IMG/VR virus record: IMGVR_UViG_3300020172_001510
Coordinates: 1-35,142 of that record
Strand: one strand, 5' to 3'
Source of the DNA: a virus
DNA: 35,142 nt
Below are positions 1,893 through 28,846 of this stretch, piece by piece; position 1 is the first letter of the stretch; each line of letters begins with the position of its first letter. Below the pieces are notes generated by a model, which had not been told where the DNA came from, did no database searches, and saw only the letters and a program-made list of their open reading frames with translations. Both the position numbers and the translations under genes were made by a program.

Positions 1893-3632
1893 TTATACAG
1901 TGCGAACCCAAAGTTTTATCGTCGATACAGTTTCTTTGGTTGCAATTACTGTTGCGCCAGAGAAGTTAGTGGAATAAGTTCCACTAAAATTGCTGGCATA
2001 GTTGCCCGAATAGTTTCTAGAACCTGAATAATATCCAGTGTAGTTACCTGTGAAGTATCCAGTATATGTGCCAGTAAATGTTGCCGTTCCCAGATAGTTA
2101 CCAGTAAAGTTCCCAGCATATGTACCCGAGTATGTTCCAGTGTATGTTGCTGGTCCAACATAGTTTCCTGTGAAGAATCCTAAGTATGTGCCAAGATATG
2201 TTCCAGCATAGTTACCAGCATAGTTTCTAGAACCTGAGAAGAACCCAGTATATGTTCCAAGATAGTTGCCTGCATAGTTGCCCGCATAGTTTCTCGAACC
2301 ACCATAAGTTCCAAGATAGTTACCGCTGAAACTGCCGAGGTAATTTCCAGTAAAGTTACTCGCATATGTTCCAAGATAGTTACCCGCGAAGTTACCACCA
2401 ACGAAACCACCAAAGAATAGTGTATATGTTCCAAGGTAGTTACCACTAAAGTTGCCTAAGTAGGTTCCACTAAAGTTTCTCGAGTATGTTCCAAGGTAGT
2501 TGCCAGCATAGTTACCAGCATAGTTTCTTGAACCAGCATATGTTCCTACATAGTTACCACTAAAGTTCCCAGCATAGTTACCAGCATAGTTTCTGGATCC
2601 AGCATAATTTCCTGTGTAATTGCCGCTGAAGTTTTGTGTGTAATTGCCAGAATAACCAGAGGTACCGACATAGTTACCAACATAGTTACCAGAGAAGTTT
2701 CCAGTATATGTTCCTGAATAGTTTTGTGGACCGACATAACCGCCACTAAAGTTATTTGCAAATGTGCCAGCAAATGTGCCAGCATAATTACCAGAATAAT
2801 TTCTTGAACCCGCAAAGTTACCGACATAGTTACCGACGAAGTTACCTTGATAGTTCTGTGGTGTTACTTGCTCTCTGGTATCAGCAAACTCATCACCGAG
2901 TTGAACCCATGTTCCACCAGAAACTGGAGCAGTTGATTGAACCTTATATAATCCTACGCCACTATCAATAATTCTGTTTCTAAAATTCGGAAGCATCTGT
3001 AGAATTTCCGAAGATGACATTTCTTTGACATCTTTGGTATCGATAAGTTTCAGTGGTTTTAGATTAGAGTCTGAAAGAGTGGTTGCTGCAGTTTTCTGCC
3101 AAAGGTACGTAGTAGTATTACCGCCATTAGCAACATCTGTTAGAGTATAACGTGAAACCCATGTACCACCTGACGGAGCAGTTGGTTGCAATCTATACTG
3201 ACCAGCAGTATATGTTGTCTCGTTGATCATCGCATCGATCGCGTAGTCTAGGAGTTCGGTATCAATTTGACCATCTGTCAGTTCTTTGATACCGTCGTCA
3301 TATTTTAGTGGACGATTGGTAATACTTTCCACCGCAGCAGCAGTAACCTGTTTGGCAGTGTATGTGACAGTGTCAACAGCGCCAGTCGCAGGGTGTGTTC
3401 CTGTTGCTTCTTGACGATCCGTATCCGCGAATGTTCCGATTGTAGTACCAGCACCACTGTTGTTTGTGGTAATGTTTATTTCAGCAGTACCAGTACCATC
3501 TGCGTTTGCACCAAAGGAAACTGTCAGAGTTTGTGCAATATAATTTTTTATTTCAGCAACAGACATCTGCTGAAGACCCTGCCAGTTTACAGCAGAAACA
3601 GGTGTCGCTGAAGATTTATTTCTTAAGACCAT
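1893..3632 (-). CDS. Tyr/Asn/Gly tetrapeptide-repeat fibre protein B
   Basis: 579 residues in three parts. Residues 1-258 form a non-repetitive head carrying two related modules (GQYRLQPTAPSGGTWVSRYT at 145-164 and GLYKVQSTAPVSGGTWVQ at 227-244), with EEVTPQNY-like sequence at its end. Residues about 259-558 are a continuous tandem array of four-residue units, N/T-Y/F-x-G (GNYAGNYLGTYSRNFSGTY), about 75 units, with GSRNYAGNY punctuating it. The last 21 residues, GATVIATKETVSTIKLWVRT plus V, form a conserved tail also found in the gene upstream. The regular period and Gly suggest an elongated beta-structured fibre. Position after baseplate genes supports a tail fibre or adhesin. Exact role and receptor are unknown. 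It begins 3 bases after the stop of paralogue A. Confidence 0.75.
   Translation of the reverse strand: MVLRNKSSATPVSAVNWQGLQQMSVAEIKNYIAQTLTVSFGANADGTGTAEINITTNNSGAGTTIGTFADTDRQEATGTHPATGAVDTVTYTAKQVTAAAVESITNRPLKYDDGIKELTDGQIDTELLDYAIDAMINETTYTAGQYRLQPTAPSGGTWVSRYTLTDVANGGNTTTYLWQKTAATTLSDSNLKPLKLIDTKDVKEMSSSEILQMLPNFRNRIIDSGVGLYKVQSTAPVSGGTWVQLGDEFADTREQVTPQNYQGNFVGNYVGNFAGSRNYSGNYAGTFAGTFANNFSGGYVGPQNYSGTYTGNFSGNYVGNYVGTSGYSGNYTQNFSGNYTGNYAGSRNYAGNYAGNFSGNYVGTYAGSRNYAGNYAGNYLGTYSRNFSGTYLGNFSGNYLGTYTLFFGGFVGGNFAGNYLGTYASNFTGNYLGSFSGNYLGTYGGSRNYAGNYAGNYLGTYTGFFSGSRNYAGNYAGTYLGTYLGFFTGNYVGPATYTGTYSGTYAGNFTGNYLGTATFTGTYTGYFTGNYTGYYSGSRNYSGNYASNFSGTYSTNFSGATVIATKETVSTIKLWVRTV
1959..2858 (-). 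repeat. 12-bp-period coding repeat array in fibre B
   Basis: About 75 consecutive codon quartets of the form N/T-Y/F-x-G, visible on the plus strand as repeated blocks such as TAGTTACCAGCATAGTTTC and TAGTTACCACTAAAGTT. Codons vary at the third base, so the array is old or has diverged, but many 20-30 base stretches recur exactly and could recombine. Confidence 0.9.
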
Positions 3633-3635
3633 GTT

Positions 3636-5888
3636 TTATGCCGTCCTTATCCATAACTTAACAGATGACACTGTTTCTTTAGTTGCCTGTATTGTTGCTC
3701 CAGAAAATGCTCCAGTAAAATTCCCCGAGAATGCGTTGGAATAATTACCTGAATAATTTGCTGGTCCATTATATAGGCCTGAGTAATTTCTAGATCCAGA
3801 GTAGGTACCAGAGAAGGTTCCGCCACCAGCATAGGTTCCAGAATAGGTTCTTGAACCAGAATACGGTGCAAGACCAGAATAACTACCTAGATAATTGCCA
3901 GAATAAGTTCTTGAACCAGAGTAATTACCAGAGAAGTTTGCACCACCACCATAAGTTCCTGAATAGGTTCTCGAACCAGAATATGATGCTGGTCCAGCAA
4001 AGTTTCCAGTCCCCAGATAGTTTCCAGTTCCTACATAGTTACCATCATAGTTTCTAGATCCACCATAGTTCTGCGGACCAGAATAGTTTACAGATCCAAG
4101 GTAGTTACCAGCATAGTTTCTAGATCCAGAGTAGTTTATTGTTCCAGCGAAACCTATAATACCTGCATAGTTACCAGCATAATTTCTAGAACCAGAATAA
4201 TTTATTCCTGGACCCGAATAAAATCCGAGATATCCATTAAGCGGAAAATATGGAGCATAATTTCTGGAACCTGAGTATCCAGGACCTGGACCAGCAAATG
4301 ATCCACCAGAATAGAATTCGGGGAAACTGCCGATTCCTGGAATGAATTGCGTTGCCTGGAATCCTGGACCTGAGTAGAATCCTCCTGGACCACTAAAGTA
4401 CGGTGTCACGAAATAAACAACTGTATCCAAACTACTTGGAGTTGGTTGGTATATTGTGTATGGTGTACCAGCGTATCCAACTGGTCCAGAATATGGACCT
4501 CCTGAATAAGTTCCTGCCATGAAGAACCCAGAATAATTTGTACCTGGACCTGCATAAAATCCTGCATAGTTTCTCGAACCAGCGTAGACTCCACCATATG
4601 TTGATGGTGGTGAAAGATAGTTACCAGCATAGTTTCTTGAACCAGCATAGTTGGTTATTCCAGAATAGTTTGCAAAACCTGCATAGTTACCAGAATAGGT
4701 TCTAGATCCAGAATAGTTTGCTGTTCCAGCAAAGTTTCCAGTTCCCAGGTAGTTACCAGAATAGGTTCTCGAACCAGAATAGTTTGCTGGTCCAGAGTAG
4801 TTCTGCGGTCCAGCAAAGTTTCCAGTTCCTGCATAGTTACCTGCGTAGTTTCTAGAACCAGAATACGGAATAGATCCGCCGTAATTACCTATGTAATTAC
4901 CAGAGTAATTTCTAGAACCAGAATAATTACCAGAGAAATTAACAGACCCCAAGTAATTACCCGAATAGTTTCTAGAACCTGAAAAGAATAACGTTCCACC
5001 ATAATTGCCTGCGTAATTACCCGAATAGGTTCTAGAACCTGAGTAGTTTGCTGTGCCCACATAATTGCCAGAAAAGTTACCAGTGAAATTTCCAGTGAAA
5101 TTTCCTGCATAGTTCTGTGGTGTTACTTCTTCACGAGTATCTGTGAATGTATTGCCTGTTTGAATCCAAGTGCCGCCACTAGGCGCATCTGATTGGATTT
5201 TATATGTTCCGATACCTGTTTCAATAATTCTATTTCTGAAGACTGGAAGCATCTGTTCGATTTCTGCCTCAGTCATCTGCTTGCAGTTACTACCAGCAAA
5301 CAATTTTAGTGGTGTAAGATCCACTGTTGGCGCTGAAGATGACACTGTTTTCTGCCACAAATATGTTACAGTGTTTCCACCTTGCGCTGTATCTGTTAAT
5401 GTATACCGCGAAACCCAAGTTCCGCCTGATGGTGCAGTTGCTTGTAGTTTATATTGACCAGCAGTGTATGTGGATTCAGCAACCATCGCCTCAACGCAGA
5501 GATCCATTGTGCTATCAATGTCACCATCTACCATTTCTTCTAGGCGAGAATCCCATGCTAAAGGTCTGTTGGTAATACTTTCCACCGCAGCAGCAGTAAC
5601 CTGCTTAGCAGTGTATGTTGTTGTAGAGACTGCACCAGTAGCAGGATGCGTTCCGATAGATTCGGTTCTGGTCGTATCGACGAACGTACCGATCGAAGTT
5701 CCTGCGCCTGAGTTATTTGTTGTGATATTTAATTCAGCAGTTCCAGTACCATCTGTTACTGCAGCAAATTTTTCTGTGATAACATTGGCAATATAATTTT
5801 TTACCTCTGCATCGGTCATGGTCTGCAAACCGCTGATGTTTGCAGAAGTGATTGGGGACCCTGTTGCCTTGACCTTTAGAGGATTCAT
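3636..5888 (-). CDS. Tyr/Asn/Gly tetrapeptide-repeat fibre protein A
   Basis: 750 residues, paralogue of fibre B. Residues 1-258 align closely with fibre B (shared TAKQVTAAAVESITNRPL, TYTAGQY, SGGTWVSRYTLTD, QMLP-FRNRII). Residues about 259-729 are repeats of N-Y-x-G with a frequent longer unit SGSRNYSGNY(A/L/I)G; this array is less strict than in B and richer in SRNYSG and SRTYSG. Near residues 425-560 the pattern breaks down into Pro/Tyr/Phe-rich sequence (TPYTIYQPTPSSLDTVVYFV, GPGGFYSGPGFQATQFIPG). It ends in the same tail, GATIQATKETVSSVKLWIRT plus A. A probable elongated tail fibre. The two genes are 3 bases apart and probably arose by duplication; the irregular segment might be a distal or receptor-facing element (inference). 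Confidence 0.75.
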   Translation of the reverse strand: MNPLKVKATGSPITSANISGLQTMTDAEVKNYIANVITEKFAAVTDGTGTAELNITTNNSGAGTSIGTFVDTTRTESIGTHPATGAVSTTTYTAKQVTAAAVESITNRPLAWDSRLEEMVDGDIDSTMDLCVEAMVAESTYTAGQYKLQATAPSGGTWVSRYTLTDTAQGGNTVTYLWQKTVSSSAPTVDLTPLKLFAGSNCKQMTEAEIEQMLPVFRNRIIETGIGTYKIQSDAPSGGTWIQTGNTFTDTREEVTPQNYAGNFTGNFTGNFSGNYVGTANYSGSRTYSGNYAGNYGGTLFFSGSRNYSGNYLGSVNFSGNYSGSRNYSGNYIGNYGGSIPYSGSRNYAGNYAGTGNFAGPQNYSGPANYSGSRTYSGNYLGTGNFAGTANYSGSRTYSGNYAGFANYSGITNYAGSRNYAGNYLSPPSTYGGVYAGSRNYAGFYAGPGTNYSGFFMAGTYSGGPYSGPVGYAGTPYTIYQPTPSSLDTVVYFVTPYFSGPGGFYSGPGFQATQFIPGIGSFPEFYSGGSFAGPGPGYSGSRNYAPYFPLNGYLGFYSGPGINYSGSRNYAGNYAGIIGFAGTINYSGSRNYAGNYLGSVNYSGPQNYGGSRNYDGNYVGTGNYLGTGNFAGPASYSGSRTYSGTYGGGANFSGNYSGSRTYSGNYLGSYSGLAPYSGSRTYSGTYAGGGTFSGTYSGSRNYSGLYNGPANYSGNYSNAFSGNFTGAFSGATIQATKETVSSVKLWIRTA
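3702..5114 (-). repeat. Coding repeat array in fibre A
   Basis: A 12-bp-period array encoding N-Y-x-G units, often combined into a 24-36 base block for GSRNYSGNY. It is interrupted at about 4200-4620 by sequence without the period. It shares many short identical stretches with the array at 1959-2858, so unequal exchange between the two genes is possible. Confidence 0.88.
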
Positions 5889-20728: not shown

Positions 20729-23700
20729 CTAGACGACTTGCCTAAACCCAGATTTATAAACCATACCTTTACCACCTGGTGTTGCTGTAAGCGTTTGTCC
20801 TCTTTGTTTTCCATCTCTGTTCGTGTATCCAATATGAATCCAAACACTGCCACGGGCATTTCTTTCCAAGATTATCTGATCATATCCATTCAAATTTGAT
20901 GCTGCCCACCGACAAACATCAATATACTGTTTTGGATTCAAGTTAGGGAAACTTAAATCAGCAGCAGATCCCCAACCATGCGCATTGGTATCCAGTTTTG
21001 TTTTTGTGCCATCTGGATAATACTTTCTAAATCCACAAGACCATGATACTTTACCGTACTTATCGAATAATGGTTCGATGACATTAACCGCAAGACAACG
21101 AAGATTATTCAATATTTCATATTCATTTTGTTTACTTCCTGGTGATTTATGCCCACGAAGATCAGCAGCACCATTAGGGCAACCATCCCTGCCATTACAT
21201 AATTGTGCCAGTGTTATTCTCGAGGAAATTTTTAAAGTACCATCATATTTTTGTCCCTGTTGAGGAAGAGGTGGAAGTTTCACTCCCTTCAATGTATTAC
21301 AATCTTTTGATGGAATTCCACTTTTTCCAGCTGGCGGAGGATAGGAAGTAGTACCATCGCCTGATGTTCCGCCTGATGTATCAGACGAAGTGCTCGTTGA
21401 AGGATCTCCATTGTTGACGCAATCTTCACCACCTTCAGCACCAGAAAGTTGCCCTTCAACATTACCATTTTCATCAGGTTCACCACCATCAGTATTCATA
21501 CTACTGTTTTCGCCACTATATCCAGTCTTAACAGCATCATTTGTTCTCTCGACAGGTTGTGGCGCAGATAGAGAAACAGGTTTTTCTAATTCATATGTCA
21601 CTGGAAGTTTTGCTGCTACTGCACAGATTGCATCTTCAGCAGAACCAGCAGAACCAGCAGACGCAGGAACTGTGATAGATGCAGTGGTATTACCCTTTAT
21701 ATCGGTAGTATCATCTGGAGTATTATGTGTTCCCTTGAGATTTGTGGTTCCTGCATTCAATGTAGTAATATTTGCAGTTGTAACATCAAGAGTTGCTGTA
21801 TCAATTGGCGAAGAAGTAACCAGTGGTGCCTTCAAACTGATATTTCCTGTACTTTCTGCATTAATAGTTCCAGCAGATTTAATATTAACATTACCAGTTG
21901 CTTCTTGATTGATCATCGCAGCAGATTTAATATTAACATTACCAGTTGCTTCTTGATTGATCATCGCAGCGGTTTTCAAGTTAATATCACCAGTAGATTT
22001 AGCAAGAATTTCTGCATCAGTACATAGGTTCATGTTACCAGTTGAATGATTGAAAAATGCTCCGCCAGATTTGATATGCGTATTAACCTTGGATGATAGA
22101 TTCAATCCTGCGACTGTTGTTAGGTTATATTTACCTGTAGTTTTGGTAGTTACTGCTCCTGTTATTTCAGCGTCAACCTTACCTTCATTCTTAACAGAAA
22201 TGTCACCTTCGTTTCTGAGGTAGATACCATCTTGTACTGAAAGACCAAGCGATCCGCCAATGTTGACATTAACATCATTATGGATATCAAGACTGACTTT
22301 ACCATGCATAGTTAATGCGGTATCATTCATGATGAACACATTACATTGCCCTGCGATATGGACATTGGCATTACCCTCAATAAGGACATACCCGTCTTTT
22401 TCTATTATGGAATAACCATTACCGATAATTTTATTTACCTGAGTTCCATCTGGTCCAGTCTCCGTAAAGGTTCCTGATCTGTGAGCAATATTCAATCGCT
22501 CGAATCCAGGAGTGTCATCGATTTCTAATGCGTGACCAGATTCACCTGCAAAAACTTTGTTAAACGGATACTTTGCAGCATACGGAGTTGCTGGTTGTTC
22601 CCATGTAGAACCAGAACGACCCGCCATCTTTACCGCACGTTTTCTCGATGCGTTCCTTGCTGCTGGCGAAGAACCTAATGACTGAGAAGATTTATCGCCC
22701 GCAGATGTTCTTGGGTCTGGGTTAATTCCAGGGGAATTGATACCAAGCGCAAGAGTATTAGTATCTGGTTTGTTTACGTAGTCTGGTTTTGGATAGTTCT
22801 TCTTTGGGTCTTTGAATCCTTTGCCATCTTCCTTAGCAATATTAGTATTTTCATTTGTTGGAAGATTTTCTGCGTCTGGTGCATTGACTGCAGTATTTAC
22901 TGCATCAGCTGCCTGCGCAGGATGAGAAATACCATTATCAATAGTTGATTTTGGTTGTTCCTTTAATGGTGCTTCTACTTTCTCGACAATCTTTCCTTGG
23001 GACACTGTTCCATCTGATTCCGTGGTTGTTGTTATTGTAGTAACAGCACCTGATGGTTGTAGTGTTGAAACAGAAGAAGTGGAACTACCATCTGATGCAG
23101 TTTGTGTTGATTGAGAAACAGCAGCAGACATACTTGCAGTATCTGAAGTAAAGTTTAATAGGATCTCATTTTTTGCTGAGACACATGCGACATATGTAAA
23201 TGTCAATTTTGATCTATCTGCTTCTCGTGCCTTAGTATCAAGTTGCTTGATCAGAGTTTCTACATCGGCCGGATCATCAAACGCAATAGTCTTATTACTT
23301 TCTGCGTCATCTGCTGCAGAATTTTTATCTGTGCTTGCTAATTCTTGGACAGAACCTGCAATGGAAGGATAGGTTCCAATCAACCAATCTGTAGTATCAT
23401 CAATAGCAAGTAACCAAGTACCGAAAGAAGGTCTGTTATGTAAAGAATCGCGTTCTGTTAATGACAGTCGAGTAAGTGTCGTTATTGCTGCAGCAGATAA
23501 TGCGCTTGAATCTTTATTGGTACCAGCGAATAACTCTCTATTATTTTCAATTTTATCTACAATACGAAGAGTATACGTTTCGGTGCCAACATGTTCTGCA
23601 GTAATTTGTATTCCGTTTTGAGTAAAATCATATGGATTGGCTACTGATGAAGATGCAGATGCAGATGCAGGCGCAGGAGTGCTCTTAATTCCTGTCACAA

Positions 23701-25726
23701 CCTTTGCAGATATAGTTCCTGTTGGCGTTAGTTCATAAGTAATTGATCCATTATTGATTGTTCTAACAATCTTTTTGGGAACTTCCTTTGTTTCCAATGG
23801 AGAATTAGATGTTGCTGCAGTCTCTACTGTAGTCTCGCCTACTATTTTTGGTTTTTCAGTGGGAACAACATAAACTGCAGTATCTGCAGCAGATACTGCA
23901 GTATCTGCTGTAGTTATTGGTGTAGTTTCACCTGCTGTTGATGGTGTTGCAGGTTTATTCAGTTCTTGTTGACGTGCCTTTAGAGTTAATCTATATGCAG
24001 TTTTAGCACTAAGATTCGAACTTACATCCGTGGGTTCATCCGGATCAACAATTCTTCCATCTTTTAGTCTTGCCCAACCACCGAATCGATCTATCTCAAC
24101 GATTTGACCTTGAATAGATGAATTTGCATCTTCGAAATCTGCGGGGTCAGTTGATCCTATTATTAATATTTCTCCTGGGACTCCAGGAGGAGTGATTTGT
24201 TCTTCCTTGACAATACTGGTCGTTCCAGGAGTCGGTCCTGGAGTTGCAACCTGTTCTATTGGAAGCGCGACAGCATTAAATCCAACATCAAACCAATATT
24301 TAGCAGATACACCATTTGCATCTGTCTTAACATTTCCCCGTAAATAGTTTTGAGTTGCGTCGATATCCCAACAAATCGACATACCCAATGCGCCAGCAAG
24401 AGTCTTTTTATCAACACTCTCATTAATTGCTCTTGAAGTCAGCAATAATTGATATGTGAATTTGAGCAAATTTACTGCAGCAATATCTTGTAAATGTGGT
24501 TGTAAAATGAACGCATCATGCATATTTTTCGGATCAAGAAATCTTGTTCTTGGTGGTTCAGAAGTATTCGGCGCTTGTAGAGTTAATCTATATGCGGTTT
24601 TTGCATCATTGTTAGCATCTATATTAGTGTGAAAATTAGGTTCAACAATTCTTCCATCTTTGAGTTTTGCCCATAATGGTATTTCATCCGCATCTATCTC
24701 GACGATTTGATCTTGAATATCTGGATGTGCGCGTAAGAAATCTGCAGGATCAGTTGATATTCTCTTAACTGGTTGTGCTGGTGTTACAATTATTTCTGAT
24801 TTGATTTCCGGATGACAAGAAACATTAAATCTTGAATCTGAACCATTAATAATGTGTATGAGCATGTAGTATAATGCATTATTTCTTGCACTTACAGGCG
24901 CTTCAATTATTCTTGTTTGCTTACCGGAATTATACTTCACAAACCGACTATACCAACTTTCATATTCTTCGTTACCTCTTGATGGTACAGGAATATTTGG
25001 TAGATTGTCATTAATCCAGGTGTTCAATTCGCTTCCGAGTATTCCTCCATCAATTAACTGTGTAACACCCAGTTTATATACACCATATTCACCATCCGCA
25101 TGCACGACGTTGAATTTCCACTGATCGCCAGTTGGTGTTACAGCGACTGGTGCAGTAGTTACTGCTGCTGTTGGTGTTACTGCTGCTGTTGGTGTTACTG
25201 TTGATGTCTCAGGAGTATTCGCTGCGTCTAGAGTTAATCTATATGCGATTTTTGCATCATTGTTAGCATCTATATTAGTGTGAAAATTAGGTTCAACAAT
25301 TCTTCCATCTTTGAGTTTCGCCCACAATCGTGGTGTTGTTGCATCTATCTCGACGATTTGATCTTGAATATATGGATCTGCATCTTCGAAATCTGCAGGA
25401 TCAGTTGATATTCTCTTAACTGGAGTATTAACTGTTGTTGCAGTAGTTACTGCTGCTGTTGGTGTTACTGTTGCTGCAGTCTCTACTACTGTTGGTGCTG
25501 TAGCGGGAACAATATATCCAGGTGAAACGAGTAAATTAAATCCTTGTTTCGGAGTTTCGCCAAAATTATATACTCGATTATAATACTGCAGGGTCATGGC
25601 GTTCTGAATTTGCTTCAGAAGCGTAACGACATCATCGCGAGTCAGAGAACCAATGGTCTCGTCTTCCGCCATGTTGATACTGTCAACTGTCGTAAAATAT
25701 GGAGTAGATGAATCATATTTTTTCAT
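20729..25726 (-). CDS. gp5: Baseplate central spike, gp5 C-terminal part, with M15 peptidase domain
   Basis: 1665 residues. Residues 1-970 have no T4 counterpart: three copies of a 60-residue STDPADF...QIVEID...LKDGRIV module (105-166, 322-383, 525-582) between low-complexity Thr/Ala/Pro linkers, and an unrecognised domain at about 695-865. Residues 971-1110 match gp5 (FKDPKKNYPKPDY; AKYPFNKVFAGESGHALEID, DTPGFERLNIAHRSGTFTE; T4 has YPYVHTMETESGHIQEFDDT). Residues 1110-1350 are beta-helix repeats (GNVNIKSAAMINQEA), i.e. the trimeric needle. After a flexible linker, residues 1495-1640 form an M15_3-type peptidase: NAHGWGSAADLSF gives H1583 and D1590, E1621 in IILERN, H1631 in WIHIGY. It lacks OB-fold and lysozyme, which are on the gene upstream. 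It would lie at the centre of the baseplate and be the first part to touch the envelope. Confidence 0.85.
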   Translation of the reverse strand: MKKYDSSTPYFTTVDSINMAEDETIGSLTRDDVVTLLKQIQNAMTLQYYNRVYNFGETPKQGFNLLVSPGYIVPATAPTVVETAATVTPTAAVTTATTVNTPVKRISTDPADFEDADPYIQDQIVEIDATTPRLWAKLKDGRIVEPNFHTNIDANNDAKIAYRLTLDAANTPETSTVTPTAAVTPTAAVTTAPVAVTPTGDQWKFNVVHADGEYGVYKLGVTQLIDGGILGSELNTWINDNLPNIPVPSRGNEEYESWYSRFVKYNSGKQTRIIEAPVSARNNALYYMLIHIINGSDSRFNVSCHPEIKSEIIVTPAQPVKRISTDPADFLRAHPDIQDQIVEIDADEIPLWAKLKDGRIVEPNFHTNIDANNDAKTAYRLTLQAPNTSEPPRTRFLDPKNMHDAFILQPHLQDIAAVNLLKFTYQLLLTSRAINESVDKKTLAGALGMSICWDIDATQNYLRGNVKTDANGVSAKYWFDVGFNAVALPIEQVATPGPTPGTTSIVKEEQITPPGVPGEILIIGSTDPADFEDANSSIQGQIVEIDRFGGWARLKDGRIVDPDEPTDVSSNLSAKTAYRLTLKARQQELNKPATPSTAGETTPITTADTAVSAADTAVYVVPTEKPKIVGETTVETAATSNSPLETKEVPKKIVRTINNGSITYELTPTGTISAKVVTGIKSTPAPASASASSSVANPYDFTQNGIQITAEHVGTETYTLRIVDKIENNRELFAGTNKDSSALSAAAITTLTRLSLTERDSLHNRPSFGTWLLAIDDTTDWLIGTYPSIAGSVQELASTDKNSAADDAESNKTIAFDDPADVETLIKQLDTKAREADRSKLTFTYVACVSAKNEILLNFTSDTASMSAAVSQSTQTASDGSSTSSVSTLQPSGAVTTITTTTESDGTVSQGKIVEKVEAPLKEQPKSTIDNGISHPAQAADAVNTAVNAPDAENLPTNENTNIAKEDGKGFKDPKKNYPKPDYVNKPDTNTLALGINSPGINPDPRTSAGDKSSQSLGSSPAARNASRKRAVKMAGRSGSTWEQPATPYAAKYPFNKVFAGESGHALEIDDTPGFERLNIAHRSGTFTETGPDGTQVNKIIGNGYSIIEKDGYVLIEGNANVHIAGQCNVFIMNDTALTMHGKVSLDIHNDVNVNIGGSLGLSVQDGIYLRNEGDISVKNEGKVDAEITGAVTTKTTGKYNLTTVAGLNLSSKVNTHIKSGGAFFNHSTGNMNLCTDAEILAKSTGDINLKTAAMINQEATGNVNIKSAAMINQEATGNVNIKSAGTINAESTGNISLKAPLVTSSPIDTATLDVTTANITTLNAGTTNLKGTHNTPDDTTDIKGNTTASITVPASAGSAGSAEDAICAVAAKLPVTYELEKPVSLSAPQPVERTNDAVKTGYSGENSSMNTDGGEPDENGNVEGQLSGAEGGEDCVNNGDPSTSTSSDTSGGTSGDGTTSYPPPAGKSGIPSKDCNTLKGVKLPPLPQQGQKYDGTLKISSRITLAQLCNGRDGCPNGAADLRGHKSPGSKQNEYEILNNLRCLAVNVIEPLFDKYGKVSWSCGFRKYYPDGTKTKLDTNAHGWGSAADLSFPNLNPKQYIDVCRWAASNLNGYDQIILERNARGSVWIHIGYTNRDGKQRGQTLTATPGGKGMVYKSGFRQVV
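20807..21244 (-). other. Region coding for the M15-type peptidase domain at the spike tip
   Basis: Encodes residues 1495-1640 of the spike. The spacing H-x6-D and a distal W-x-H match the zinc ligands of D-Ala-D-Ala carboxypeptidase / L-Ala-D-Glu peptidase families (M15), preceded by an SSRITLAQLC start and SWSCGFR strand. Confidence 0.72.
21873..21968 (-). repeat. Perfect 48-base tandem duplication in the spike beta-helix
   Basis: Two identical 48-base units (21873-21920 and 21921-21968), each encoding 16 residues around MINQEATGNVNIKS; a third, diverged unit follows on each side. It adds one or two rungs to the needle, and identity at silent sites suggests a recent event. Confidence 0.92.
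23981..24154 (-). repeat. Spike N-terminal module, copy 3 (diverged)
   Basis: Encodes GSTDPADFEDANSSIQGQIV and WARLKDGRIVDP, the most diverged of three copies of the same 60-residue module. Confidence 0.8.
24578..24763 (-). repeat. Spike N-terminal module, copy 2
   Basis: Encodes RISTDPADFLRAHPDIQDQI and LWAKLKDGRIVEPNFHTNID. Most of it is base-for-base identical with copy 1 at 25229-25414, including a stretch of over 80 bases with one or two changes. Confidence 0.9.
25229..25414 (-). repeat. Spike N-terminal module, copy 1
   Basis: Encodes RISTDPADFEDADPYIQDQI and LWAKLKDGRIVEPNFHTNID. Flanked on both sides by short Thr/Ala/Val/Pro tandem units (VTPTAAVT) at about 25140-25200 and 25430-25500. 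Confidence 0.9.
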
Positions 25727-25729
25727 TGG

Positions 25730-26746
25730 TTATACCTTATACTTATTTCTATAGAAGGCAAATCTCTTTCTTCTATCAGCAAGACCCAACGCAGGGTCCA
25801 CACCATTAATTGCTGTAGATACGTACTCGACATCGCCCCATCTATTATTTTTGCCTATGTTGGGTCGTTCTTTGTTGAAGTAGTAAATTAGTATTAATGC
25901 TGCGACCTCTTTAGTTGCTGCTAACTCTGGATTTTGCTCCAGCGGTTGGTTAAGGTACTTTCCAGCGTTTCGATAATTAATTTTCCACGTAAGTCCCAAA
26001 AATCCTCTTCCGCGATATTTCTTTCCATCTCCTGGTTGCGTATTGCCATTTAACCTCGCCCTTTTCCTACCTTCTGGATCTATACTTGTAATATCATAAC
26101 CGCTATGAGCCTTTGTCCCGTTTTTGCGTCTACCATTATTAATATAATTGTCGTCGCCCACTTCTGTCATTTTCGTGAAGTTAGCAGATTCGTGGGCGCA
26201 TTGTGCCATGATCATAGCCTTGGCAAGTGGAGTATATCCTTTTATTTTTTTACTACCATTAGCATCTAACCAAGATTCCAAGTAAGATTCCAGATCTTTG
26301 GCATTACCACTTGGTTGTACTACATCACCGACATCGCCAGCAGAACCAGAATCCCCGCTACCTGTTGCAGCATCACCAGAAGATCCGGATCCCTCGGAAG
26401 GAGCGCAATCTGCTGATGCTAATCCTCCTGGAATTGATCCTACAGATCCAAAAAACATAGGATGTTGACCATTTTCGCCATCGGCGAAAAATCCAACAAC
26501 CCAAGAACCTTCTACTGCACCAGTCGGAGACCACCCAACACCAGAAGTACCTGCTGAGTTTGCTGGCATGACTGGTATCGCCCATGGAAGATCTTCTGTT
26601 GGTAGAGTCTCAGTATCTTCCGTGTGATATCCAATAATTCTTACTCGACATCTACCCAGTCGTAGTGGATCATCACGATCTTCCACCACTCCGAACCACC
26701 AATAGAAGTTTGCATTATTATTAGATGTAATATTATTCATTGCCAT
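25730..26746 (-). CDS. gp5: gp5 N-terminal part: OB-fold plus GH19-type lysozyme
   Basis: 338 residues. Residues 12-110 match the gp5 OB-fold (NFYWWFGVVEDRDDPLRLGR, CRVRIIGYHTED, LPWAIPVMPANSAGTSGVGW, GAVEGSWVVGFFADG), which binds the gp27 trimer. Residues 113-147 are a Gly/Ser/Asp linker. Residues 150-338 form a lysozyme of the GH19 chitinase type: IMAQCAHESANFTKMTE carries the likely catalytic Glu186, and GKKYRGRGFLGLTWKINYRN is the family signature. T4 has a T4-lysozyme (GH24) at this place in a single gp5 that is later cut; here the gene itself ends after the lysozyme and the needle is a separate gene 3 bases on. It would cut peptidoglycan glycan strands during tail penetration. Confidence 0.88.
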   Translation of the reverse strand: MAMNNITSNNNANFYWWFGVVEDRDDPLRLGRCRVRIIGYHTEDTETLPTEDLPWAIPVMPANSAGTSGVGWSPTGAVEGSWVVGFFADGENGQHPMFFGSVGSIPGGLASADCAPSEGSGSSGDAATGSGDSGSAGDVGDVVQPSGNAKDLESYLESWLDANGSKKIKGYTPLAKAMIMAQCAHESANFTKMTEVGDDNYINNGRRKNGTKAHSGYDITSIDPEGRKRARLNGNTQPGDGKKYRGRGFLGLTWKINYRNAGKYLNQPLEQNPELAATKEVAALILIYYFNKERPNIGKNNRWGDVEYVSTAINGVDPALGLADRRKRFAFYRNKYKV

Positions 26747-26749
26747 AAT

Positions 26750-27157
26750 TTAACTTCCTATCTCACTGTTAACACGTTCGAGAACCTTTGCATAACTCTT
26801 TGGATGTAATCCATCATTAGAGGGGAATTCTGATAGTCTAACAGTTTTATCGCCGTATTTAGATGCAACACCTTGTATTTTCTGTGCAATAGTATTATCA
26901 TATGGAAGAATCCAAATAACCTTTTTAGTTTGGGATTTAATAGATTCTCTTACTGCAGTTGCGTTTTCAGCAGTTTTAATATTTGGATAACCCTTATCAT
27001 TTGATCCCATTGAAATAACTGTATAATCGGAACCACCCTTGGCAACATAATTTTTCTTAATTTTATCAGTATTCCAACCAACAGTAGCATTTGTTGCTGC
27101 ATTCTTGGCAGAACTTCCTAGACCTTGTGCAATACTATCACCGATAAACGAACCCTT
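26750..27157 (-). other. Region coding for the SGNH hydrolase domain of the hub protein
   Basis: Encodes residues 564-698 with blocks I (GDS), III (GSND) and V (DGLH). Block II Gly is less clear (about G589). About 135 residues is short for the family but covers the core fold. Confidence 0.78.
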
Positions 27158-28846
27158 TCCAACTGGTTTTGCCGAATTCGTTGCTGGTGCTGAAGTTGCT
27201 GCTGGATCTGCCGGAGTTGCTGCAGGATCTGGTGCCGGAGTTCCTGTATTTTCTGTGTTAACTGAACCACCAATCTCTTCGACCTCATATATTTGTTGTG
27301 CATATGAATCCTTAGAAATCTCTAAAAACATGGTATGTCTTAGTGGTGATACTTGATGGCGTATCGCAGTTATCATGTAAATACCAGATATAAATTTGTC
27401 CCATATCAATGCTTCAGAATCTTCTTTAGTTTTTTCCCCAACAGATGGATAGTATAATTTAATCATTCTACCAACTTCAGCATCTGTTCTTCCAGGAACT
27501 GTTATTTGTAATCTCAATGTGGTCAAGTCCATCAAAGAGCTATTTCTCTGTGAAACAAAATCTTCAGGGCGTAAATCGATAGAGTCTACTGTTGAATCCA
27601 ACACACCAGGATTAACCGTTGAAACAAATGGTTTACTATCTGCAGAACGCATCACATTAATTGGAAAAATCATCTTGTATTTTTTGTCGGTTTTACTAGG
27701 ATCATCTCTATCAATGTCAGGGAATGTATATGCCCCTGTTGCTGGATCCAATTTTCCATCTTCCATGTGATTATATTGTTTATAGTTGAACCCATGATCA
27801 TAATGATATGCAGTATATTCTTTCTTAACCATGTTGAATGAATGAATAGTACTAGCGAAATGCCCCAAGTCTTGACTTTGAAGTATATCTAAATTTGTAA
27901 TAAATTCTAGTGCCTCAATTGTTTGAAATCCTTTGATCATTGAGGAAACTTTATCAAGATTTTGTAGATTAGTATTGTATACAAACGCTGAGTAAATATC
28001 TCCGTTTTCTAACTGATTTTTAACAAGAGCTTCTATGGATGCAAAATAAAATCCTTTTGTTGTTTCATAAAATAAAAATGTCGGAGATTTGTGTAGATTA
28101 CCAATAGATCTTTTTGCTAACCAATTCAATGTTTCGATTGGTGACCACATTGGAGATACAAATGTTATCTCTGTCTCGTGTGGAGTGTCAGCGATATACA
28201 GTTCCGTATATAATGTCTCGTCAGTTACATCTTGAGAAGATTCGGTTCCATCAGTTGTCGTCGGGACGGGTGCCGCAACAACTTCGTCTTTGCTATTGAA
28301 AAATCTTTTTGATTTCATGTTTTCTGTAAAAATCTCAGAAACAATCTCATCAGTTGTTCCTTCAAATTTTTTACTTATTTTTGTAACGTTATCAGCAGCT
28401 GCTTCTAATGAGCAAAATAGTAATTCGTAATATTGCTCTCTATCATTATTAAGTTTGCGATTTTTTACTGCATAAACAGAGAAAGATTTCTGAATTTTGT
28501 TAATTGGATCGAATGCTCCAAGATTGCCTTTCGAATAACCACCCATCTCTCCCCATGGAGTCTGTATATCAATAGTGAGAACTTCATCCCCGACAATCGG
28601 TAACGTTCCAACAAGATTTAAAGAATCACGAATAACCACTGATCCATGTAAAGTCGGTGAAAAAATATCTTCATAAAGATTTATTTCCATCATAAACGGT
28701 TTTAGATCTAATGGTTGTTGTGATGAGATTACGGTTAAGTCAAGAGATGCAATAATTACATCTCCTGGTTTTGCCAATGCATCACTGACTCCTGATACCT
28801 TTTTAGTTGATGCAGATTTACTTGGATCTGCTGTCGGTTCTGCCAT
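26750..28846 (-). CDS. gp27: gp27-like baseplate hub protein fused to an SGNH/GDSL hydrolase
   Basis: 698 residues; T4 gp27 has 391. Residues about 30-515 fit a hub of the gp27/gpD type: LDLKPFMMEINLYEDIFSPT, FVSPMWSPIETLNWLAKRSI, SPTFLFYETTKGFYFASIEA and a last beta domain with SGIYMITAIRHQVSPLRHTM. It directly precedes the gp5 OB-fold gene, its expected partner. A Pro/Ala/Asp linker (about 535-562) leads to residues 564-698, which show all main SGNH blocks: FIGDSIAQGLG (nucleophile S571), ISMGSND (N616) and NDGLHPKSYA (D678, H681). SGNH enzymes in this setting remove acyl groups, for example O-acetyl from peptidoglycan or polysaccharide; the substrate here is inference. Hub assignment rests on motifs and position. 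Confidence 0.8.
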   Translation of the reverse strand: MAEPTADPSKSASTKKVSGVSDALAKPGDVIIASLDLTVISSQQPLDLKPFMMEINLYEDIFSPTLHGSVVIRDSLNLVGTLPIVGDEVLTIDIQTPWGEMGGYSKGNLGAFDPINKIQKSFSVYAVKNRKLNNDREQYYELLFCSLEAAADNVTKISKKFEGTTDEIVSEIFTENMKSKRFFNSKDEVVAAPVPTTTDGTESSQDVTDETLYTELYIADTPHETEITFVSPMWSPIETLNWLAKRSIGNLHKSPTFLFYETTKGFYFASIEALVKNQLENGDIYSAFVYNTNLQNLDKVSSMIKGFQTIEALEFITNLDILQSQDLGHFASTIHSFNMVKKEYTAYHYDHGFNYKQYNHMEDGKLDPATGAYTFPDIDRDDPSKTDKKYKMIFPINVMRSADSKPFVSTVNPGVLDSTVDSIDLRPEDFVSQRNSSLMDLTTLRLQITVPGRTDAEVGRMIKLYYPSVGEKTKEDSEALIWDKFISGIYMITAIRHQVSPLRHTMFLEISKDSYAQQIYEVEEIGGSVNTENTGTPAPDPAATPADPAATSAPATNSAKPVGKGSFIGDSIAQGLGSSAKNAATNATVGWNTDKIKKNYVAKGGSDYTVISMGSNDKGYPNIKTAENATAVRESIKSQTKKVIWILPYDNTIAQKIQGVASKYGDKTVRLSEFPSNDGLHPKSYAKVLERVNSEIGS

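Follow-up and report, generated by a model that had tools for sequence, protein, structure and literature searches.

A T4-like tail tip in an uncultured virus contig with predicted SGNH, GH19 and M15 domains on three consecutive proteins

The stretch analysed here (the window) is the whole 35,142-nucleotide virus contig IMGVR_UViG_3300020172_001510 of IMG/VR. Three adjacent open reading frames (ORFs) on its minus strand encode a gp27-like baseplate hub, the N-terminal part of a gp5-type protein (gp5N) and a gp5C-type spike, and the block probably forms the device with which an uncultured T4-like phage punctures the cell, one in which each of the three proteins carries a predicted wall- or envelope-active domain: an SGNH hydrolase-like domain on the hub, a GH19-type lysozyme in gp5N and an M15-type zinc peptidase on the spike. 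The initial annotation had proposed three enzyme classes on these consecutive proteins. Domain calls and conserved residues bear this out, and the residues it named (hub S571, GSND, D678 and H681; gp5N YRGRGF; spike H1583, D1590 and H1631) were found where it had placed them.

Three predicted enzyme domains on hub, gp5N and spike

The SGNH motif positions at the C-terminal end of the hub are S571, the GSND stretch starting at residue 614 (G614, N616, D617), D678 and H681. We aligned the window domain with the copies of four further hubs and with ten relatives, 28–34% identical to it, that are stand-alone phage proteins or come from plasmids, and found that the Gly, Asp and Ser of block I, the Gly, Asn and Asp of block III (GxND) and the Asp and His of block V (DxxH) are invariant in all 15 rows. 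The candidate block II glycine, G590, assigned by position only, is invariant in 13 of 13 hub rows and not throughout the 15. Pfam GDSL_2 matched the isolated domain with E 1.4e-4 and 22.9 bits, below the curated cut-off of 32.9, and matched 7 of the 15 rows at E up to 0.1. Searches of PDB with the single sequence or with the 13-row hub profile gave nothing useful. With the 15-row profile the best chains were 5ug1 (E 0.0046) and 5ufy (E 0.0086), both listed as 'Acyltransferase', which we take to be pneumococcal OatA; weak matches to the ORF1 esterase 4c1b (E 0.14), to 8gr2 (E 1.3) and to the O-acetyltransferase PatB 8tlb (E 1.7) scored like those to unrelated chains.

In a VIA-align comparison with a structure model of this domain, 6wn9, the catalytic domain of OatA, ranked highest (Z 8.6, root-mean-square deviation (rmsd) 2.8, 101 aligned), followed by a match with Z 7.2, although a Z below about 8 can reflect a common arrangement. 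By our reading, 43 of the 50 listed titles, TesA and EstL5 included, are esterases, lipases, acyl- or acetylhydrolases, other hydrolases or acyltransferases. Foldseek gave no match to the model at E 0.001 or better. The quality of the model counts against the assignment: its predicted local distance difference test (pLDDT) score is 61.6, with domain residues 1–42 below 50. Together, the model and the profiles make an SGNH fold likely for hub residues 564–698. The ratio of nonsynonymous to synonymous substitution rates (dN/dS), estimated by NG86 between the window and nine relatives, is low (0.045–0.15), so the domain is kept under selection.

In gp5N the GH19-type domain lies behind the OB fold. 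A phmmer search aligned it with the SPN1S endolysin 4ok7, both glutamates included; E186 and E195 are presumably the counterparts of the catalytic glutamate pair of that enzyme, and YRGRGF is found at residue 244. The Pfam Glyco_hydro_19 score of the window protein (24.6) falls just below the cut-off of 25.5, which is passed by 12 of 14 matching homologues (BUCT-ZZ01, then 4 of 4 and 7 of 9), with L006 and L014 below it at 24.3.

The M15-type domain retains H1583, D1590, E1621 and H1631, which are invariant in 16 of 16 sequences, those of phages Cr30, Melnitz and BUCT-ZZ01 included; in three of these rows (L015, L017 and L021) the stretch between the first His and the Asp is shorter by one residue. 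Pfam M15_3 matched nine of these 16 rows (best E 4.2e-5) and left the window row unmatched. The model of the domain (pLDDT 75) has as its best VIA match the zinc D,D-peptidase 1lbu (Z 9.9, rmsd 3.7, 127 aligned), in agreement with an M15 fold; VldE and hedgehog domains, which presumably share this fold, came next. Foldseek found no match to the model at E 0.001 or better, the single sequence retrieved nothing from PDB, and a search with the 16-row profile picked up hedgehog chains weakly (E 0.014 at best) and 2vo9 with E 0.8.

The relation of the hub core to gp27 was seen with hhalign, where a 14-row hub profile matched a 4-row gp27 profile with a probability of 91% and E 1.1e-6, collinear across 192 columns of the N-terminal part. 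As a single sequence the hub did not match T4 gp27, deeper profiles being needed, and the hub profile had no match in PDB. Of 50,697 named phage records, 170 match the hub and none covers 80% of it; among the 50 matches listed, all stop by hub residue 523. Upstream of the M15 domain, the beta-helix of the spike resembles gp5 of Aeromonas phages and RB49, and the N-terminal part differs in length among relatives. A module resembling its STDPADF repeat (49% over 61 residues) is also present in the L002 protein at 2990–5452, minus strand, which seems to be the counterpart of a plus-strand ORF leaving the window end from 33419; the part of that ORF inside the window has no such module.

Table 1. 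Positions of the three tail-tip proteins and their domains in the window
Feature	Protein residues	Window position	Strand	Basis or size
Hub ORF		26750-28846	minus	698 aa
gp27-like baseplate hub core	1-519	27290..28846	minus	phrog_350 'tail protein' E 7.1e-73; hhalign to gp27
Pro/Ala/Thr-rich linker	520-563 (44 residues)	27158..27289	minus	sequence
Compact SGNH hydrolase-like domain	564-698; S571, N616, D678, H681	26753..27157	minus	Pfam GDSL_2, motifs, VIA and profile matches
gp5N ORF		25730-26746	minus	338 aa
gp5 N-terminal OB fold	13-112	26411..26710	minus	Pfam Gp5_OB E 1.7e-14; phrog_430
GH19-type lysozyme/endolysin domain	149-338; E186, E195	25733..26302	minus	4ok7 E 8.6e-14; phrog_181 'endolysin' E 1.7e-33
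Spike ORF		20729-25726	minus	1665 aa
Long N-terminal spike part	1-1035	22622..25726	minus	STDPADF repeat of ~65 residues, three copies (107, 324, 525)
gp5C-type beta-helical spike	~1036-1400	21527..22621	minus	phrog_430 at 1030-1285 E 3.7e-44
M15-type zinc peptidase domain	~1530-1650; H1583, D1590, E1621, H1631	20777..21139	minus	phrog_894 'endolysin' E 1.7e-9; invariant residues; model

The three genes belong to a T4-like baseplate block on the minus strand of this 35 kb contig, which comprises a tube-cap gp48-like protein, gp53, hub, gp5N, spike, gp25, gp6 and a gp8-like protein. The plus strand encodes a head-closure protein, a DNA-end protector, a tail tube and a baseplate hub protein. A Pfam search (E 0.01) of ten other ORFs of the window revealed no PAAR protein. 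The nearest named phage is Synechococcus phage BUCT-ZZ01, with an identity of only 27% for the hub and 32% for gp6. The psbA/D family is missing in six of six related contigs; these are fragments, so the result speaks neither for nor against a cyanobacterial host.

Distribution and exchange of the enzyme domains

Relatives were collected by two overlapping scans; the one with the hub yielded 23 loci, the one with the SGNH domain 26. All three genes are readable in 25 metagenomic contigs, a count that excludes the window, duplicates and contigs that stop short of a domain (L001, L004, L008, L012, L018, L023, L024, L028–L032, L034, L037 and L039). The 25 include redundant contigs: all three proteins of L002 and L003 are the same as those of the window, and L038 and L040–L043 score identically. 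The hub of L014 is a 3′ fragment that includes the SGNH domain, and that of L016 has an in-frame stop.

The initial annotation had staked its reading on the presence of the same triplet in related phages, and 18 of the 25 contigs carry SGNH, GH19 and M15 together. Two more (L019 and L020) combine SGNH and M15 with Phage_lysozyme2, and the remaining five (L013, L015, L016, L017 and L021) keep GH19 and M15 and have no SGNH domain. Of the 23 contigs counted for GH19, 12 had the domain scored with Pfam (L005, L006, L009, L011, L013, L014, L015, L017, L022, L033, L035 and L038), as had L041, and in the other counted contigs it was scored by protein similarity to the window. In L013, L015, L017, L018 and L021 most of the hub linker is missing along with the SGNH domain. 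L015, L016, L017 and L021 are also the contigs with a shortened M15 loop (see below). In the hub copies read, the GDS, GxND and DxxH motifs are retained in all save the frameshift-broken L012. The full triple is spread over two lineages, with just 51–54% identity between their hub cores, and it was found in no named phage.

Exchange of domains was likewise examined by NG86, whose large dS values approach saturation and are approximate. For L021 the SGNH row of the output was discarded, as an unrelated stretch had been forced into the alignment, and no alignment was obtained for L013 and L015. Between the window and L019 or L020 the hub cores are 53–54% identical with dS 2.0–2.2, whereas the SGNH domains are 90–92% identical with dS 0.41–0.48, and we therefore read a recent transfer of the SGNH domain. 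Selection alone was considered as the cause of this likeness across lineages and was rejected for L019 and L020, where the low dS points to recent exchange. Other modules behave similarly: against L005 the beta-helix of the window is 97% and the M15 domain 45% identical, against L033 the OB fold is 86% and GH19 44% identical, and in L019 and L020 Phage_lysozyme2 stands in place of the GH19 of the window. The enzyme domains are exchanged independently of the tail-tip scaffold, which fits adaptation of related phages to differing host envelopes.

Possible roles of the hub SGNH domain

If the three proteins are arranged on the tail axis as in T4, the spike tip would come first, the OB and glycosidase part next and the hub behind. 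Upon sheath contraction the M15 domain at the spike tip would be the first to reach the periplasm, where it would cleave peptide stems or cross-links. GH19 would cut glycan strands, and the SGNH domain, trailing the other two on its flexible linker, would take an ester-linked group, in all likelihood acetyl, off a wall or surface glycan. Related phages swap the three domains like tools on a conserved scaffold. In favour of this reading are the domain calls, the recurrence of the triple in two lineages, the low dN/dS of the SGNH domain, the separate exchange of the modules, a further fusion of the SGNH family into a gp5-like protein (L104, below) and the precedent of a gp27-like protein with SGNH in phages 80alpha and phi11. 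The most likely function predicted for the SGNH domain is thus removal of an acetyl or other acyl group, for which peptidoglycan O-acetyl is one candidate and a surface polysaccharide or receptor another.

The initial annotation had gone further and described a complete penetration kit that removes O-acetyl groups, cuts glycan and cuts cross-links together. For GH19 and M15 this is a fair inference, whereas the SGNH domain as remover of peptidoglycan O-acetyl groups did not fare as well. We regard it as doubtful that the hub SGNH domain is a dedicated peptidoglycan O-acetylesterase that works with GH19 and M15, defeats lysozyme resistance based on O-acetylation and is exchanged with them as cartridges matching host wall chemistry. 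The nearest solved structures, both by VIA and by the 15-row profile, are SGNH enzymes that handle peptidoglycan O-acetyl groups, in agreement with such a role.

A series of observations weighs against this role or against the puncturing reading as a whole. A broad SGNH profile scan confirmed 175 relatives, of which 80 were listed, 26 of hub type and 54 other; among those listed, 53 of the 54 non-hub viral relatives lie in ORFs of 134–248 codons (stop to stop) and are deemed stand-alone by length. Ten neighbour proteins at eight stand-alone loci have no envelope theme, being of metabolic type (CMD, four; class II aldolase, two; AhpC/TSA and deaminase, one each) or unmatched (two). Together with the plasmid relatives and their mixed contexts, described below, these stand-alone genes are the main evidence opposing a wall enzyme by descent. 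The SGNH domain is dispensed with in the five contigs named above. A second tail-tip fusion of the family, and another multi-enzyme tip, is predicted at L104:3020-6559, a gp5-like frame of 1179 residues that combines an OB fold, a compact SGNH domain and two GH24 stretches, but here, in a copy outside the 15-row alignment, Tyr replaces the His of DxxH. The axial order set out above would put the SGNH domain last, the reverse of deacetylation before glycan cutting, unless the linker reaches forward. For the M15 partner, the HxxGxAxD loop is one residue shorter in L015, L016, L017 and L021, where it reads HRYSAVD or HRYAAVD.

Compact SGNH relatives, L047–L059 among them, were found in 32 plasmid records, all from alphaproteobacteria genera, and those read are small separate proteins. 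We considered them as markers of conjugation machinery and dropped the idea, as the contexts in the 13 of 32 records inspected were too mixed: one adjoins trbL and a transglycosylase, four lie in or beside a CsgG/HfaB gene group (two of the four with mobF), one lies about 570 bases after a TraG gene, one has a lytic transglycosylase 2.5 kb away on the opposite strand, and the remaining six are without such context or unannotated. A scan of genome contigs with the SGNH domain found no relative, and only two of the named phage records matched it at E up to 1, each with a small ORF separate from the hub. The stand-alone SGNH genes of L098, L101, L109, L128, L137 and L142 overlap the next gene (170–180 codons) by 4 bases; of the five such next genes scanned (all but that of L101), four belong to the CMD family and one (L128) is a deaminase.

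It is possible, though somewhat on the unlikely side, that the SGNH domain acts outside the wall, where it would deacetylate or bind an O-acetylated surface polysaccharide, lipopolysaccharide or receptor and serve adsorption. Several papers are reported to have SGNH/GDSL esterases on phage tailspikes or fibres as their subject, and others describe a GDSL domain on the antireceptor of an S. thermophilus phage (PMC5601072) and, for phi11, whose Tal has a C-terminal SGNH domain, O-acetyl groups of N-acetylmuramic acid as part of the receptor (PMC4876445). Presence of the domain in some relatives and its absence from others would also fit a host-range trait. However, the domain sits on a central gp27-like hub and not on a fibre, and its closest structures are peptidoglycan O-acetyl enzymes.

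The triple as a whole could be a coincidence of common modules, in which M15 has nothing to do with the other two and is a structural tip or an accessory general to T4-like phages. M15-like spike ends do occur in Cr30, Melnitz and BUCT-ZZ01 despite hubs without SGNH, an M15-like match lies in pf16 gp5, and other enzyme mixes exist (Phage_lysozyme2 with M15 in Cr30). We consider this reading unlikely; zinc-ligand residues invariant in 16 sequences would be hard to explain for a cap.

Rather improbable, in our view, is a passenger captured recently from the family of small stand-alone phage and plasmid proteins, with no penetration role or binding only. The recent horizontal movement, the optional presence in relatives, the His lost in L104 and the small separate proteins that make up most listed non-hub viral and the plasmid relatives would agree with it, but the dN/dS values, the motifs kept in hub copies except the frameshifted one and the occurrence in two lineages argue for a retained function. 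That motifs matched by chance underlie the SGNH or M15 calls, as the sub-threshold (SGNH) or absent (M15) Pfam matches of the window and the weak Foldseek E-values might suggest, is highly improbable and largely refuted by catalytic residues invariant at 28–34% identity (SGNH) and in 16 M15 rows and by VIA lists dominated by the expected families.

A T4-like central puncturing device can thus gather three chemically different domains, predicted to be wall- or envelope-active, and have them swapped independently of a conserved scaffold. The contigs offer a natural series of tail tips, with or without SGNH, with GH19 or Phage_lysozyme2 and with several M15 types, for testing each activity in wall crossing. 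They also point to a compact SGNH family below the Pfam cut-off that is common to phage tail tips, stand-alone phage proteins and alphaproteobacterial plasmids.

Comparison with known tail tips

In T4, the gp27–gp5 proteins form an axial puncturing device, and gp5 is one polypeptide with one GH24 lysozyme that undergoes proteolytic cleavage. The window shares with it the gp27-like hub, Gp5_OB, the beta-helical gp5C spike and the neighbours gp53, gp25 and gp6. It differs in having the gp5 N-part and the spike as separate genes, a GH19 lysozyme and the additional SGNH and M15 domains, and so lacks the one-chain layout of OB fold, GH24 lysozyme and beta-helix. The division of the gp5 equivalent into two genes (OB with GH19; spike) recurs in the related contigs read, and not in BUCT-ZZ01 or Cr30. 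Such a two-gene arrangement would pre-empt cleavage of the T4 type.

The initial annotation compared the window with T4 alone, which overstates the novelty, given the following systems. In BUCT-ZZ01, gp5 (ON615601) also combines OB fold, GH19, beta-helix and M15_3 (E 0.0086, below cut-off), yet everything is in one 939-residue protein and the hub ends without SGNH. The gp5-type spikes of Caulobacter phage Cr30 and Methylophilales phage Melnitz end in an M15-like match, and Pseudomonas phage pf16 has one inside a gp5-annotated gene. Cr30 differs in using Phage_lysozyme2 as glycosidase, Melnitz in a gp5N with a weak VanY match in which no glycosidase was found, and both in hubs without SGNH. In Melnitz (L026:16727-17764) the weak VanY match lies behind the OB fold and beside the M15-ending spike, so that two peptidases may be present.

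For the SGNH domain itself, the nearest counterparts are OatA/PatB-type domains acting on peptidoglycan O-acetyl groups, by fold (6wn9) and by sequence profile (5ug1), the sequence relation being weak. The architecture of the hub has a parallel in Staphylococcus phages 80alpha (gp59) and phi11 (gp44, Tal), described in PMC7048315 and PMC4876445 as a gp27-like N-part with a C-terminal SGNH/GDSL hydrolase domain whose enzyme activity is not established there. These are siphophages of a Gram-positive host, the likeness is by domain description, and their SGNH part has about 240 residues compared with 135 in the window. Among open-access PMC papers, as far as their text was accessible, neither the triple nor a peptidoglycan O-acetylesterase at a tail tip was found to be reported. 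Two of the three enzymes are thus already known together from BUCT-ZZ01, and a gp27-like protein with SGNH from 80alpha and phi11; the new part is the triple.

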